Origin: Cystobacter ferrugineus
Lineage (GTDB): Bacteria; Myxococcota; Myxococcia; Myxococcales; Myxococcaceae
Direction of reading: 5' to 3'
Length of the DNA: 64,000 nt
Assembly: GCF_001887355.1 (NCBI RefSeq)
Contig: NZ_MPIN01000007.1
Location: 332,888-396,887, forward strand
Shown here: piece by piece, positions 10,724 through 15,275 of the stretch
Numbering within the stretch: the stretch's first letter is position 1
Layout: every line of letters begins with the position of its first letter
Position numbers and translations under genes: made by a program
The notes under the pieces: generated by a model
Databases searched by the model: none
Told to the model about the DNA's origin: nothing
What the model saw: the letters and a program-made list of their open reading frames with translations, nothing else

Positions 10724-10798
10724 CCTGGAACGATAAGGAGGCCGGGCGGAACCTGTCAAAGACGCCTTCCGCCCCTGAAACGTCCGCATGTCGTGGAG

Positions 10799-10872
10799 TG
10801 CCGCGGGCGGGATTCGAACCCGCAACCCCTGCGTTCTGAACGCAGTGCCTCTACCAGTTGGGCTACCGCGGC
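10799..10872 (-). tRNA. tRNA-like gene 1, short class I body with Leu anticodon CAG
   Basis: Reads on the minus strand as a full cloverleaf: 7-bp acceptor GCCGCGG/CCGCGGC, D-arm with GGTAGA, anticodon stem CTGCG/CGCAG around loop TTCAGAA, five-base variable loop, T-arm GCGGG-TTCGAAT-CCCGC, discriminator A73, no encoded CCA. The anticodon is CAG, which reads the leucine codon CUG, and A73 fits leucine. Canonical bacterial tRNA-Leu, however, has a long variable arm (class II), which is absent here. The body looks more like tRNA-Gln. It may be functional, non-canonical or specialised. Confidence 0.65.
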
Positions 10873-10890
10873 GTGTGTTTGGACTGCGAG

Positions 10891-10965
10891 TGCCGGAGGC
10901 GGGATTCGAACCCGCAACCACCAGACTCTCGATCTGGGGCCTCTACCAGGTTGGGCTACTCCGGC
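10891..10965 (-). tRNA. tRNA-like gene 2, short class I body with anticodon GAG and C33
   Basis: Minus-strand cloverleaf with acceptor GCCGGAG/CTCCGGC, a D-arm almost identical to tRNA-like gene 1, anticodon stem CCAGA/TCTGG, a five-base variable loop, the same T-arm as gene 1 and A73. The anticodon loop is TCGAGAG, so the anticodon is GAG (Leu CUC/CUU) and position 33 is C instead of the near-universal U. Shared D- and T-arms show it is a paralogue of gene 1 with different acceptor and anticodon stems. The spacer to gene 1 is 18 bases. C33 and the short variable loop make ordinary decoding doubtful. Confidence 0.6.
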
Positions 10966-10992
10966 GTGGAGCACTGTTGAGACGGTGAAGAG

Positions 10993-11063
10993 CGCTCCTG
11001 CAGGGAATCGAACCCAGTTCACACGGTAGACGGCCGTGCTGCGATCCAATCGCATCCAGGAGC
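10993..11063 (-). tRNA. tRNA-like gene 3, anticodon GUC-like with C33
   Basis: Minus-strand fold: acceptor GCTCCTG/CAGGAGC, D-stem TGCG/CGCA with a seven-base loop containing GG, anticodon stem CACGG/CCGTG around loop CCGTCTA, four-base variable region, T-arm CTGGG-TTCGATT-CCCTG with one T-T mismatch, and G73. Anticodon GTC would read Asp codons, and G73 is the Asp discriminator, but position 33 is C and the D-loop is short. About 71 bases, 27 bases from gene 2. It is unrelated in sequence to genes 1 and 2. It could be a degenerate or specialised tRNA. Confidence 0.5.
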
Positions 11064-11097
11064 TTGTGTTGCGAGAGCAGGAGCCGGAAAGGCAAGA

Positions 11098-11123
11098 GGC
11101 CGGTCCCTTTCGGGATCCCGGCC
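11098..11123 (-). terminator. GC-rich hairpin with GAAA tetraloop after the peptide gene
   Basis: On the minus strand GGCCGG pairs with CCGGCC and TCCC with GGGA around a GAAA tetraloop, with a two-base bulge. It lies between the stop of the 51-residue peptide gene (11167) and tRNA-like gene 3, and a short T-rich stretch follows. It may terminate the peptide transcript or act as a processing site ahead of the tRNAs. Confidence 0.5.
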
Positions 11124-11166
11124 CCTTGAGTCCCGTGCCTCGTCGTGAGACGGGGACGCGGTGGGT

Positions 11167-11322
11167 TCAGGGTCCGGGTAGTCGGCCGCCCAGCGACTCC
11201 ATGCCGCCGAGCAGAAGGTTCAGGGCGGAGTCCAGACCGGTACGCGAGAGCGCGTCGATGCCAGTGTTAGTGTCGTTGTGGGACTCGAGGTTCATCGGGC
11301 TCTGCTTCGTCACCAGGCTCAT
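11167..11322 (-). CDS. 51-residue peptide of unknown function with Gly-Gly motifs
   Basis: A small gene with a strong ribosome-binding site: AAAGGAG ends 8 bases before the ATG at 11322. The product begins MSLVTKQSPMNLESH and ends L-N-L-L-L-G-G-M-E-S-L-G-G-R-L-P-G-P. The Leu-rich segment ending in Gly39-Gly40 resembles a double-glycine leader cleavage site, which would leave an 11-residue core (MESLGGRLPGP). No modifying enzyme or transporter is adjacent. The AT-rich region upstream (about 11430-11480) is a likely promoter. The gene is followed on the same strand by the three tRNA-like genes. An in-frame upstream ATG exists, but without a comparable ribosome-binding site. Confidence 0.5.
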   Translation of the reverse strand: MSLVTKQSPMNLESHNDTNTGIDALSRTGLDSALNLLLGGMESLGGRLPGP

Positions 11323-11594
11323 GGTCACCGCTCCTTTCATCGAGAAAAGACGCGGCCCGAAATCGTTCCTGACAACTTCTGCGTGGAGATGGCCGCGGAG
11401 CCGCTTCCGGGCGCTTGCGTTGCGTGAGAGCAGCATGATGACATTTTTTTGTTGGATGAATTGTTTGAACTGTTTTTGCCTGGAGTCATGGTCATGAGCT
11501 TGCCTCCACGCCTCACGCACGCGAACGCCTCATGGAGCTGATGGCGCGGGATCCCCCTTGCCGTCGCGTCGTCCGGCTGCTAGCCATGAGTCAT
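11323..11594 (-). promoter_or_regulatory. leader and promoter region of the small peptide gene
   Basis: No gene is evident in these 272 bases. The segment around 11435-11480 is AT-rich with runs of T and A, unlike its surroundings, and lies about 110-160 bases upstream of the peptide start, where a minus-strand promoter would be expected. The plus-strand thi promoter should also lie here, upstream of the riboswitch. Confidence 0.35.
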
Positions 11595-11680
11595 TCCGTT
11601 GGGGTGCCCCTTCCCGGGGCTGAGAGGCCGAGCGCCAACCCATCGAACCTGATCCGGCTAGGACCGGCGTAGGGAACGGA
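11595..11680 (+). ncRNA. TPP (thiamine pyrophosphate) riboswitch, THI element
   Basis: Contains the conserved THI-box blocks in order: GGGGTGCC, GGCTGAGA, a variable hairpin, ACCC, GAACCTGATC, and ACCGGCGTAGGGAA. The P1 helix closes between 11595-11600 and 11675-11680 (TCCGTT with AACGGA). It lies 85 bases upstream of thiO and should sense TPP to repress the thiazole operon. Confidence 0.93.
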
Positions 11681-11720
11681 GAGCAGCGAGGGCGCGCGAT
11701 CTCTCGGTCGTGGCCCTGGA

Positions 11721-11764: not shown

Positions 11765-12742
11765 ATGCGGACGCCTACGACCAGCGGCTACACGATCCTC
11801 GGTGCCGGGGTCATGGGCCTCTGCACCGCCGTCGAGCTCGCGAGCCGTGGCGGTCGGGTGACGCTGGTCGATCCCCAGCCCGAACCGGGCCCCCATGCCT
11901 GTTCCTGGTGGGCGGGCGGGATGCTCGCTCCCTTCTGCGAGGGCGAGACGGCCGAAGAGCCGGTGATCCGGCTCGGCCAGACCGCCGCCGACTGGTGGGC
12001 GGCGCAGGGGGTGGAGGTCATCCGCCGTGGCACGTTGGTGCTCGCCCTGGGCCGCGACCGGGCCGAACTCGACCGCTTCGCCGCCCGGACGCGGGAGCAC
12101 CGGTGGATGGGGGGCGAGGAGCTCGCCGCGCTCGAACCCGATCTCGACGGCCGCTTCCATCGCGGGCTCTTCTTCCCGACCGAGGCGCATCTGACGCCGC
12201 GCGTGGCCCTCTGCACCCTGCGCGCCCGTGCCGCGGCGCTCGGCGTCGCCTTCGCGCGGACCGCGCCCGAGGGCCAGCGTATCGACTGCCGGGGCCTTGC
12301 CGCGCGCGACGCGCTCCCCGAACTGCGCGGCGTGAAGGGCGAGATGCTCGTGCTGCGCCTCCCCGACCTCGCGCTCTCTCGCCCGATCCGGCTCCTCCAC
12401 CCGCGGATCCCCGTCTACCTCGTCCCCCGCGGCGGCGGCATCTACATGCTCGGCGCCACGATGATCGAAAGCGCCCAGCGCGGGCGCGCGAGCGTCCGCT
12501 CGGTCATGGAACTGCTCAGCGCCGTCTATGCGCTGCACCCGGCCTTCGGCGAGGCCGAGATCCTCGAGATCGGCACCGATGCGCGGCCTGCCTTTCCCGA
12601 CAACGTCCCGCGCCTCATCCGGCGCGACGGCACGCTCTTCCTCAATGGCCTCTACCGCCATGGCTATCTGATGGCGCCGGCTCTGGCTCGGATGGCGGCC
12701 GACCACCTTCTGTCCGGCGAACCCGTGGAGCTCCTGCAATGA
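11765..12742 (+). CDS. thiO: glycine oxidase ThiO
   Basis: A 325-residue FAD-dependent oxidase that oxidises glycine to dehydroglycine (iminoglycine) for thiazole assembly in aerobic bacteria. The dinucleotide-binding motif G-A-G-V-M-G-L follows the N-terminus (about residues 12-18), E/D at the end of beta-2 is D in V-D-P-Q-P-E-P-G, and W-A-G-G-M-L-A-P matches the ThiO signature. It is first in the operon behind the TPP riboswitch, with GAGGAAG as ribosome-binding site. Its TGA overlaps the ATG of thiS by four bases (ATGA), implying translational coupling. Sequence and gene order look like Rhodobacterales. Confidence 0.9.
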   Translation: MRTPTTSGYTILGAGVMGLCTAVELASRGGRVTLVDPQPEPGPHACSWWAGGMLAPFCEGETAEEPVIRLGQTAADWWAAQGVEVIRRGTLVLALGRDRAELDRFAARTREHRWMGGEELAALEPDLDGRFHRGLFFPTEAHLTPRVALCTLRARAAALGVAFARTAPEGQRIDCRGLAARDALPELRGVKGEMLVLRLPDLALSRPIRLLHPRIPVYLVPRGGGIYMLGATMIESAQRGRASVRSVMELLSAVYALHPAFGEAEILEIGTDARPAFPDNVPRLIRRDGTLFLNGLYRHGYLMAPALARMAADHLLSGEPVELLQ

Positions 12743-12936
12743 AGATCACCGTGAATGGCGAGACACGCGAGACGGCGAGCAAGACGCTCGGCGCGCTCCT
12801 CCTTGAACTGGGCCATGGCGATGCCAGGGTCGCGACCGCTGTGAACGAGGCCTTCGTGCCCGCCGCCGCGCGCGACGGGCTGCACCTCGCCGCGGGCGAC
12901 CGGGTGGAGATCGTGACGCCCCGGCAGGGAGGCTGA
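12739..12936 (+). CDS. thiS: sulfur carrier protein ThiS
   Basis: A 65-residue ubiquitin-like sulfur carrier beginning [12 protein letters not shown] and ending in the required Gly-Gly. ThiF adenylates the C-terminus, which becomes a thiocarboxylate and donates sulfur to the thiazole. The ATG overlaps the thiO stop by four bases, and thiG starts four bases after its stop. The length matches the family (about 65). Confidence 0.93.
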
Positions 12937-12940
12937 GCCC

Positions 12941-13711
12941 ATGCCGGTCTTCTACGGAACCGAGGTCGCCTCGCCCCTGATGCTCGGCACCGCGCAATAT
13001 CCCTCGCCCGCCGTTCTGGCCGAGGCCTTCCGCCGTTCGGGGGCGGGTGTCGCCACCGTTTCGGTCCGCCGCGAGGCGGGGGGCGAGCGGGCGGGGCAGG
13101 ATTTCTGGCGCCTGATCGCGGGGCTCGGCGTGCGGGTGCTCCCCAACACCGCTGGCTGCCACAGTGTCCGCGAGGCCATCACCACCGCCCGGATGGCGCG
13201 CGAGCTCTTCGAGACCGACTGGATCAAGCTCGAGGTGATCGGCAATACCGACACGCTGCAGCCAGACCCCTTCGGCCTGGTCGAGGCGGCGCGGCTCCTC
13301 GTGGCCGAGGGCTTCAAGGTCTTCCCCTACATGACCGAGGATCTGGTGCTCGCCGACCGCCTCTTGCAGGCGGGCTGCGAGGTGCTGATGCCCTGGGGCG
13401 CGCCGATCGGGACGGGGCTGGGGCTGCTCAATCCCTACGGCCTGCGCAGCCTGCGCGCGCACTTCCCCGACGTGCCGATGGTGATCGACGCGGGGCTGGG
13501 TCTGCCGAGCCAGGCGGCCGCGGCGATGGAGATGGGCTTCGACGCGGTGCTCCTGAACACCGCCGTCGCCAAGGCGGGAGAGCCCGCGGCGATGGCCGAG
13601 GGCTTCGCGAAGGCGCTGGAGGCCGGGCGCCTCGCTCGTGGTGCCGGCCCGATGCCGCCGCGCGACATGGCCGCACCCTCCACCCCCGTGATGGGAAAGG
13701 CCTTCCTGTGA
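12941..13711 (+). CDS. thiG: thiazole synthase ThiG
   Basis: A 256-residue TIM-barrel enzyme that condenses 1-deoxy-D-xylulose 5-phosphate, dehydroglycine and ThiS-thiocarboxylate into the thiazole moiety. The Schiff-base lysine is K96 in W-I-K-L-E-V-I-G. Other family blocks are LPNTAGC (about 67-73), [20 protein letters not shown]-(T)-G and [10 protein letters not shown]. It overlaps thiE by four bases. Confidence 0.95.
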
Positions 13712-14304
13712 CGCTCGACCGCTTCTACCCGATCTTCGACGACGTGGCCTGGCTGCCCCGGGCGCTCCCCTTGGGCGTGAAGCTCGTCCAGCTCCGGCTC
13801 AAGGACCGTGCGCCGGACGACCTGCGCCGCCAGATCGCCGCCGCCCGCGACCTCTGCCGCGAGGCTGGTGCCGTGCTGGTGGTCAACGACCACTGGCAGC
13901 TCGCCATCGAGGAGGGCTGCGACTGGCTGCATCTGGGGCAGGAGGATCTGGACGGTGCCGACCTCCCCGCCATCCGCCGCGCGGGGCTGCGCCTCGGCAT
14001 CAGCACCCATGACCCCGCCGAGCTCGATCGCGCCCTCTCGCTTTCGCCAGACTATGTCGCGCTGGGGCCGGTCTATCCCACCGTCCTCAAGCAGATGAAG
14101 TGGCACCAGCAGGGGCTGGAGCGGGTGACGGAATGGAAACGCCTGATCGGCGACCTCCCCCTCGTGGCCATCGGCGGCATGAGCACCGCCCGCGCCCCAG
14201 GCGTCTTCGCGGCGGGGGCCGACATCGTCTCGGTCGTGACCGACATCACGCGCAACCCCAATCCCGAGGCGCGGATCTCCGAATGGATCGAGGTGACGCG
14301 ATGA
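13708..14304 (+). CDS. thiE: thiamine phosphate synthase ThiE
   Basis: A 198-residue TIM-barrel enzyme joining HMP-pyrophosphate and thiazole phosphate to thiamine phosphate. Signature segments are Q-L-R-L-K-D, V-V-N-D-H-W, H-L-G-Q-E-D-L, G-I-S-T-H, L-G-P-V-Y-P-T and A-I-G-G-M. It overlaps both thiG and thiF by four bases, so the operon is translated in a coupled chain. Slightly shorter than many ThiE proteins (about 210). Confidence 0.92.
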
Positions 14305-15275
14305 GCCGCTATGCCCGCCAGACCGCGGTGCTGGGGGAGGGCGCTCAGGAGCGGCTCCGGGCGGCGCGGATCCTCGTCGTGGGGGCGGGGGGCCTCGGCG
14401 CGCCGGTGCTGCAATACCTCGTCGGGGCGGGGGTGGGGCACATCCGCCTCGTCGATCCCGACCGGGTGGAGGAGAGCAACCTGCACCGCCAGACGCTCTT
14501 CCGCATGAGCGACCTCGGCCAGCCCAAGGCCGAAGCCTGTGCCCGCCACCTCGCCGGGCTCAACCCGGAGAGCGTGGTGGAGCCCGTGGTGGCCGCGCTG
14601 GAGCCCGCCAATGCCCCCAAGCTCATCGAGGGCCGCGAGCTGATCCTCGACTGCGCCGACAGTTTCGCGGTCAGCTACATCCTCTCGGACCTGTGCCTCG
14701 CGTGGGGCCTGCCGTTCCTCTCCGCCTCCGTCACGGGGCGCGAGGGCCATGCGGGCGGCTTCTGCGGCGGCGCGCCGAGCCTGCGCGCGGTCTTCCCCGA
14801 GCTGCCGCAGCGGGTGGGTAGCTGTGCCGACACCGGCGTTCTCGGCCCGGTCGTGGGGGTGATCGGTGCGTTGCAGGCGCAGATGGCGCTGGCGTTGCTG
14901 GCGGGGGAGGCGGGTGTCCTCGGGCGGCTCGTCACCTTCGACGCCGCGACCTTCCGCGCGGGCGGCTTCCGCTTCGACGGGGCGGAGGAGCCCGCGCATG
15001 CGCCGCGCTTCGTCTCTCCCTCGGAGATCGAGCCAGGAGACCTGACCATCGACCTGCGTGGGGCGGAGGAGGCCCCGCTGATCCACCCCGCCGCGCGGCG
15101 TCTGAGCGTGGCCCAGGTCGGCCCTGGCATGGACCTGCCCGAACCCGGCCAGCGTGCCGTGCTCGTCTGCCGCTCCGGCCTGCGTGCCTGGCGGGCGGCG
15201 GAACGCCTCGCCGCGATCTGGCCCGGAGACATCGCCCTCGTCGCGGCGGGCGAGCCCGTTGGAACTCCATCATGA
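14301..15275 (+). CDS. thiF: ThiF-type adenylyltransferase with C-terminal rhodanese-like domain
   Basis: A 324-residue E1-like enzyme predicted to adenylate ThiS. The ATP-binding loop is V-G-A-G-G-L-G, followed by V-D-P-D-R-V-E-E-S-N-L-H-R-Q. The Cys in G-S-C-A-D-T-G-V-L-G-P is in the catalytic-cysteine position. The paired CxxC zinc motifs of MoeB/ThiF are not evident. Residues about 245-324 form a short rhodanese-like tail with V-C-R-S-G, so adenylation and sulfur transfer may be combined. It is the last gene of the operon; thiC and thiD are not in this window. Confidence 0.88.
   Translation: MSRYARQTAVLGEGAQERLRAARILVVGAGGLGAPVLQYLVGAGVGHIRLVDPDRVEESNLHRQTLFRMSDLGQPKAEACARHLAGLNPESVVEPVVAALEPANAPKLIEGRELILDCADSFAVSYILSDLCLAWGLPFLSASVTGREGHAGGFCGGAPSLRAVFPELPQRVGSCADTGVLGPVVGVIGALQAQMALALLAGEAGVLGRLVTFDAATFRAGGFRFDGAEEPAHAPRFVSPSEIEPGDLTIDLRGAEEAPLIHPAARRLSVAQVGPGMDLPEPGQRAVLVCRSGLRAWRAAERLAAIWPGDIALVAAGEPVGTPS

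Follow-up and report, generated by a model that had tools for sequence, protein, structure and literature searches.

Three supernumerary tRNA genes in Cystobacter ferrugineus

The window analysed here, 64 kb of the Cystobacter ferrugineus genome, contains three tRNA genes according to ARAGORN, all on the minus strand and in tandem, and no further tRNA genes (table 1). They are separated by gaps of 18 and about 26 bases, close to the spacing given in the initial annotation. Rfam recognised both Leu genes with scores far above its tRNA threshold of 29 bits, whereas the Asp(GUC) gene, though called by ARAGORN, fell below that threshold in the window scan. Each Leu gene has 7 of 7 acceptor-stem and 5 of 5 anticodon-stem pairs, a 5-base variable loop and A73, which bears out the class I body ascribed to both. 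As had also been remarked, they share D and T arms: the T arms are identical (GCGGG TTCGAAT CCCGC) and the D arms nearly so. The anticodon loops of Leu(GAG) (TCGAGAG) and Asp (CCGTCTA) carry the C33 that had been read there, and that of Leu(CAG) (TTCAGAA) has U33. In the Asp gene, G8 takes the place of U8 and the T stem has one mismatch.

Table 1. Positions of the features discussed, in window coordinates unless a contig is named.
Feature	Position	Strand	Evidence and description
tRNA-Leu(CAG)	10799-10872 (10798-10872 in ARAGORN)	minus	ARAGORN; Rfam 65.1 bits, E = 7e-12; class I, U33, A73
tRNA-Leu(GAG)	10891-10965 (10890-10965 in ARAGORN)	minus	ARAGORN; Rfam 55.2 bits, E = 4e-9; class I, C33, A73
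tRNA-Asp(GUC)	10992-11063	minus	ARAGORN; C33, G8, U37, variable loop of 4 bases
P2, terminator-like hairpin	11094-11127	minus	AAGGGGCCGGGATCCC-GAAA-GGGACCGGCCTCTT; moderately T-rich stretch after it
P1 hairpin	11132-11158	minus	Predicted; follows the stop codon immediately and lies inside the antiterminator pairing
Antiterminator 5' segment	11167-11178	minus	ORF end including the stop codon, CCCGGACCCTGA; predicted to pair with the 5' arm of P2
Leader ORF	11167-11322	minus	51 codons, MSLVTKQSPMNLESHNDTNTGIDALSRTGLDSALNLLLGGMESLGGRLPGP; its Leu and Asp codons correspond to the tRNAs behind it
Promoter-like motif and RBS	11328-11373	minus	Conserved motif GTCAGG-N15-CGTC running into the RBS, GAAAGGAGCGG
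TPP riboswitch	11590-11692	plus	Rfam 74.4 bits
Second (putative backup) array	contig 5, 191211-191826 (L123:9212-9788)		Pro-GGG, Pro-CGG, Trp-CCA, class I Leu-CAA

The remaining tRNAs of the genome (12.05 Mb in 42 contigs) were gathered by family search. Class II tRNA-Leu genes of the normal kind, with variable loops of 13-17 bases, are present for CAG and GAG, the two anticodons for which the initial annotation had advised looking, and also for CAA, UAG and UAA; a normal Asp-GUC gene exists as well. Since normal Leu and Asp genes exist elsewhere in the genome, the three window genes are supernumerary; their identity to the host genes with the same anticodon is 54%, 59% and 43%. The same genome holds a second array on another contig (table 1), and all 7 anticodons of the two arrays are also served by housekeeping genes.

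A parallel tRNA set in the Myxococcaceae

About 115 homologous arrays, of 1 to about 25 tRNAs each, were found in Myxococcaceae genomes. Their hosts, in a scan of GTDB r220, include Myxococcus (among them M. xanthus AM003), Corallococcus, Pyxidicoccus, Archangium, Hyalangium and Citreicoccus. A public genome labelled 'Comamonas sp. KCTC 72670' (L289 and L301; BNCN01000002 and BNCN01000008) also carries myxobacterial arrays, a label that looks wrong because its matches correspond to contigs of a genome placed in Myxococcaceae (G067). Related arrays comprise specificities for about 20 amino acids in nearly complete sets; a DNA search of relatives, which showed the window tRNAs to recur in other genera and in dozens of related species, found a set of 26 tRNAs for 19 amino acids, with only His missing, in G016. 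Dense clusters of supernumerary tRNA genes stand beside a complete housekeeping set, the window array being one of three genes only.

The arrays contain 623 tRNAs in total, and 593 of these have at least 6 acceptor and at least 4 T-stem pairs. Among the 27 tRNA types tallied, 97.7% of stem cells are paired and double compensatory changes occur at 138 of 459 stem positions, a pattern indicating that the array tRNA folds are under selection. The initial annotation had offered degenerate copies as one explanation; conservation and compensatory stem changes rule this out for most array tRNAs, and the decayed Asp gene in the array of a relative, G003, shows that losses do occur. The unusual features of the window genes are widely shared. 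Each of the 83 array Leu genes, the 47 Leu(CAG) genes among them, has a class I body with a variable loop of 5-7 bases and no canonical class II arm, and C33 is present in 32 of 33 Asp, 40 of 43 Gly-GCC, 17 of 17 Leu-GAG and 12 of 15 Val-CAC genes. Because these oddities recur across relatives, they are best seen as conserved features of a parallel tRNA set. The alternative suggestion, specialised tRNAs or unusual isoacceptors, was right in kind.

The noncanonical bodies, C33, G8 and the poor D arms of the array Trp and Cys tRNAs might also suit decoys that absorb tRNA-cleaving toxins and act outside translation. A decoy, however, should resemble the target of the toxin, yet array tRNAs share 43-76% identity with their host counterparts of equal anticodon, and they mostly keep the discriminator base that is normal for their amino acid. 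We regard decoys as highly improbable.

At one locus (L246:3559-3644), behind an HNH gene, a class II tRNA scores 49.2 bits as tRNA-Sec (cut-off 47); ARAGORN assigns Ser (GGA, GCU) to the tRNAs located there.

A conserved leader precedes the arrays

The sequence of about 290 bp ahead of the tRNAs is conserved between loci and consists of the promoter-like motif, an RBS, a short ORF and hairpins. In the window it occupies 11373-11094, upstream of the tRNA genes, and was absent from the initial annotation; this leader ORF and its attenuator explain the window locus. Nearly every array is preceded by the same arrangement of promoter, RBS, leader ORF of 22-62 codons, small hairpin and terminator-like hairpin. 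A search for both motifs, together with reading of the fetched loci, gave 120 promoter-plus-RBS elements in Myxococcaceae, 116 of which have a recognised tRNA array directly behind them; one further element (L256) has an unrecognised Trp-like gene behind it. In a search with the RBS and start codon only, every exact match was a leader and the promoter motif was present in each, so the motif is no artefact of the later two-motif search. It resembles a promoter for an extracytoplasmic-function sigma factor and may be read by a factor of that class. Beyond Myxococcaceae the promoter/RBS pattern gave chance-like matches only, one in G148 (phylum search) and one in Caecibacteroides (GTDB scan). Two leader-like elements of the Archangium group (L192 and L200) have no detected array behind them and probably are decayed or have another target.

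The leader ORF is probably translated, judging from its RBS and conserved frame, and ends in TGA in 116 of 116 cases. It matches no Rfam family in the window or at four other array loci. The peptide has an N-terminus (TKQSPMNP) and a C-terminus (PPGx) that are conserved across genera, with a middle that varies with the array. In the leader of the contig-5 array the peptide is very different, with three Trp codons and one TTG, while promoter, RBS and hairpins are alike. Three loci (L185, L188 and L194) have leaders of 22 codons that end in RRLF and have a compact alternative hairpin in place of P2, before arrays of 1-2 genes (Tyr/Trp/Arg); these are perhaps a minimal form of the switch.

Could the peptide itself be the product, as a small regulator or RiPP-like precursor, perhaps one that the tRNAs modify in the manner of PEARL ligases? 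Its conserved ends and its position adjoining the tRNAs would fit such a role. Against it, the middle changes with the array, the paralogue in the same genome shares almost no peptide sequence, and pN/pS is 0.67, a sign of only moderate constraint on the peptide; pairing of the ORF end at the RNA level accounts for the conserved C-terminus (see below). We therefore consider a functional peptide very unlikely. No PEARL-type ligase was present among the flanking proteins scanned with Pfam, a limited sample. The use outside translation that had been proposed for the window tRNAs, in peptidoglycan synthesis or by PEARL ligases, likewise finds no partner enzyme in the scanned neighbours and fits poorly with near-complete sets of about 20 specificities, mostly normal discriminator bases and codon-matched leaders.

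Mutually exclusive hairpins are predicted behind the leader

P2 is a strong hairpin whose stem is nearly constant among arrays. Folding of the stretch before its 3' arm, as if that arm were not yet made, gave the antiterminator and P1 for the window leader and for 49 of the 52 other non-redundant leaders, 50 of 53 in all. The predicted duplex between the last 18 nt of the ORF and the 5' arm of P2 has an energy of −19.0 kcal/mol, compared with about −12 for stretches that do not overlap the ORF end and −11.6 after shuffling of the ORF ends (p = 3e-11), with a sharp minimum exactly at the stop codon. On the full inter-region RNAalifold returned P2 alone, since P2 is in competition with both the antiterminator and P1; antiterminator and terminator are thus mutually exclusive by prediction. 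P2 was not found in the 22-codon Archangium leaders, in L188 or in one L237 leader. The hairpin is present in nearly all arrays and a clear T-rich tail follows it in just 54 of 108; P2 might therefore work through Rho, pausing or RNA processing in place of intrinsic termination.

In the attenuators of the trp, his, leu and ilv operons, a short ORF with control codons precedes exclusive antiterminator and terminator hairpins, and the position of the ribosome is the switch. The leader, P1 and P2, as modelled, have the anatomy and logic of a trp- or his-type attenuator, with the same short ORF, exclusive hairpins and predicted ribosome switch. What differs is the output, which is tRNAs in place of biosynthetic enzymes, and the range of control codons: these cover many amino acids and correspond to the anticodons of the tRNAs supplied, so that the molecules sensed and supplied share one decoding specificity.

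Leader codons match the downstream anticodons

The tRNAs of the window array can exactly decode 12 of the 50 codons in their leader, whereas those of the contig-5 array could decode only 3 of these 50. Leaders ahead of Gly/Ala/Leu/Pro/Asp arrays abound in A, L, G, P and D, acidic residues are frequent in the leaders of arrays for Glu, Arg and Val, and Trp occurs in those of Trp-only arrays. Related leaders diverge as their arrays do; compare SFASFDAKCLVGFGQFGG, from L211 (Phe, Ala, Leu), with SIVSIGSKCIVGFGQIHG, from L230 (Tyr, Ile, Lys, Gln, Asn). Across 38 dissimilar leaders, the mean fraction of residues belonging to the amino-acid set of the array is 0.423, against 0.317 ± 0.012 on permutation (z = 8.9; 0 of 20 000 permutations). 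The match extends to the choice between synonymous codons. In the non-redundant set, 60 of 100 Leu codons are decodable by the array, where 40.5 ± 5.4 are expected (reached in 1 of 3000 permutations); for Gly, Pro and Arg the corresponding counts are 1, 13 and 23 of 3000, and Ala and Val show no significant match. Leaders contain on average 0.91 TTG codons where the sole Leu tRNA of the array is CAA and 0.13 where the array is without a Leu tRNA.

Since kinship could mislead such comparisons, leaders were also swapped within genomes only. The true leader-array pair was the best codon match in all 35 genomes with at least two arrays, where 11.0 were expected, and the total was reached in 0 of 20 000 permutations; these genomes are related and do not represent 35 independent events. 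As the arrays share descent, the tests are not fully independent, which the non-redundant and within-genome versions allow for in part. The match peaks (z = 6.6-6.8) at a distance of 6-19 codons ahead of the stop and is gone in the last 5 codons (z = 1.6). Its absence there fits the model of an attenuator, in which these codons form the antiterminator and must stay free of a stalled ribosome. The leaders thus carry the control codons expected of a leader-peptide attenuator.

Genomic context

The window array lies between a gene for a DUF3089 hydrolase downstream and the TPP riboswitch with a thiamine operon upstream; the ORFs behind the riboswitch (11765-15275) are thiO/S/G/E/F-like. G003 has its array at the same site, with an insert of about 8 kb just upstream of the leader. 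Within that insert is a TIR-NACHT-TPR gene with a ThsB-like TIR domain (L067:14347-17157). In a Pfam scan of a sample of neighbours the domains found were DUF3089, PKD, HNH, integrase, heparinase and TIR-NACHT. Behind 34 of 109 arrays, across genera, the same HNH endonuclease gene follows the last tRNA by about 20-45 nt. This HNH_5 gene (e.g. L070:10365-10907) is probably co-transcribed with the array and is weakly similar to PtuB-like nucleases.

Mobile elements, mycobacteriophages and giant linear plasmids among them, carry tRNA arrays (PMC12803027; PMC5966550), and the arrays described here could conceivably be remnants of a prophage, plasmid or ICE whose anti-defence tRNAs served the element and have no host function. 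A distant likeness of the tRNAs to phage tRNA-Leu genes would be in keeping with this, as would the tyrosine recombinase genes that adjoin the tRNAs at two array fragments (L071:10627-12210 and L229:13218-14381). The integrases, however, look like later insertions that used array tRNA genes as attachment sites, and the promoter/RBS element has no match in 2.9 million viral contigs. The window array sits between ordinary chromosomal genes at a site common to G003, and the downstream HNH gene is kept across genera. With chromosomal sites, conserved neighbours and no viral match, the arrays do not have the appearance of having spread on mobile elements, and codon-matched leaders imply that they are under current host control. 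A remnant of this kind is improbable in our estimation, and phage or plasmid origin was rejected as a source, having yielded just short tRNA-level matches and the leader in no viral contig.

A model for inducible backup tRNAs

Regulation of the arrays by a codon-matched leader is strongly supported by these comparisons. The sequences show a conserved architecture, a codon match with a positional profile, two competing predicted RNA structures and tRNA folds kept by selection; termination at P2, stalling as the signal, cognate charging and toxin resistance as the purpose are inferred. Near-complete sets, mostly normal discriminator bases and codon-matched leaders tie the array tRNAs to decoding, and since each sensor reads the codons that its own output serves, the signal is suggested to be a loss of housekeeping decoding. 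We think it probable that the arrays are inducible backup-tRNA operons, in which the attenuator senses failed decoding of given codons and lets replacement tRNAs be made, plausibly as a defence against tRNA-cleaving toxins. Such toxins do strike myxobacteria: M. xanthus delivers to its kin a toxin, SitA3, that cleaves tRNA-Ala(UGC) (PMC5562445), and 14 of the array tRNA genes are Ala(UGC).

At the window locus, the promoter near 11373 would start a transcript whose first product is the leader ORF, rich in Leu CTN and Asp GAY codons. If the leader is read to its stop, the ribosome would cover the ORF end, P2 would form and transcription would end before the tRNAs. If housekeeping tRNAs are cleaved or lost, ribosomes would stall on the Leu or Asp codons of the leader; the free ORF end could then pair with the 5' arm of P2 around P1, preventing the terminator, and the array would be made. 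Its tRNAs, with class I Leu bodies, C33 and altered positions 37 and 38, would probably go unrecognised by the destroying agent and, if charged with the cognate amino acid, would restore decoding of exactly the affected codons. One caveat for such a replacement role is that C33 could weaken decoding.

The signal might instead be amino-acid starvation or translation-inhibiting antibiotics, in which case codon-sensing attenuation would be real and would tune tRNA supply generally, as in the trn operon of Anabaena. That operon, of 26 genes, is off under normal conditions; translational stress induces it, and it then aids survival (PMC10272220). Starvation is less probable as a signal, since extra tRNA would do nothing to cure it; for a general stress signal, the specificity of each leader for particular codons would be pointless, and the altered anticodon loops would be left unexplained. 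On balance a starvation or antibiotic signal seems unlikely to us, if less so than the other alternatives considered above.

A more specific form of the backup-tRNA model is a distributed, codon-resolved immunity to tRNA destruction: each sub-array would have its own ribosome sensor that frees nuclease-resistant tRNAs of the specificities under attack, the leaders having been re-matched after an ancestral array was split. We put this forward tentatively, at somewhat short of an even chance. M. xanthus delivers to its kin a toxin, SitA3, that cleaves tRNA-Ala(UGC) (PMC5562445), and 14 of the array tRNA genes are Ala(UGC).

Comparison with known systems

The Anabaena trn operon and the array units of mycobacteria are likewise clusters of supernumerary tRNAs for nearly all amino acids, apart from the housekeeping set (PMC10272220; PMC12803027). 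The Anabaena operon has a repressor protein, TrcR, at its promoter, whereas each myxobacterial array has a codon-matched leader ORF and predicted attenuator; the myxobacterial arrays are chromosomal and split into sub-arrays with separate sensors. The mycobacterial study (PMC12803027), when searched, made no mention of a leader. Spare phage tRNAs with altered anticodon loops have been proposed to be replacements after cleavage by VapC, PrrC or colicins, in a paper (PMC10264068) where the word 'leader' does not occur. Those tRNAs are phage-borne, whereas the arrays studied here would be host-borne replacement tRNAs, made conditionally.

T-boxes bind uncharged tRNA by RNA alone. They too couple the state of a tRNA to downstream transcription, but the myxobacterial sensor would be a translated ORF, and no T-box was matched by Rfam in the window (tRNA and TPP only) or at four other array loci (tRNA, tRNA-Sec and cobalamin). 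We found no report of codon-matched leader-peptide attenuation of tRNA genes in the open-access papers searched. Arrays of tRNA genes and leader-peptide attenuators are each known; as far as we have found, their codon-matched combination would be the first of its kind.

If the model is correct, the debated purpose of supernumerary tRNA arrays in bacteria would gain a concrete and testable logic, and the sequence of a leader would predict both the tRNAs supplied and what turns the operon on. About 115 natural leader-array pairs are at hand as a comparative data set, and the system occurs in the tractable M. xanthus, whose kin-killing toxins include the tRNA-cleaving SitA3.
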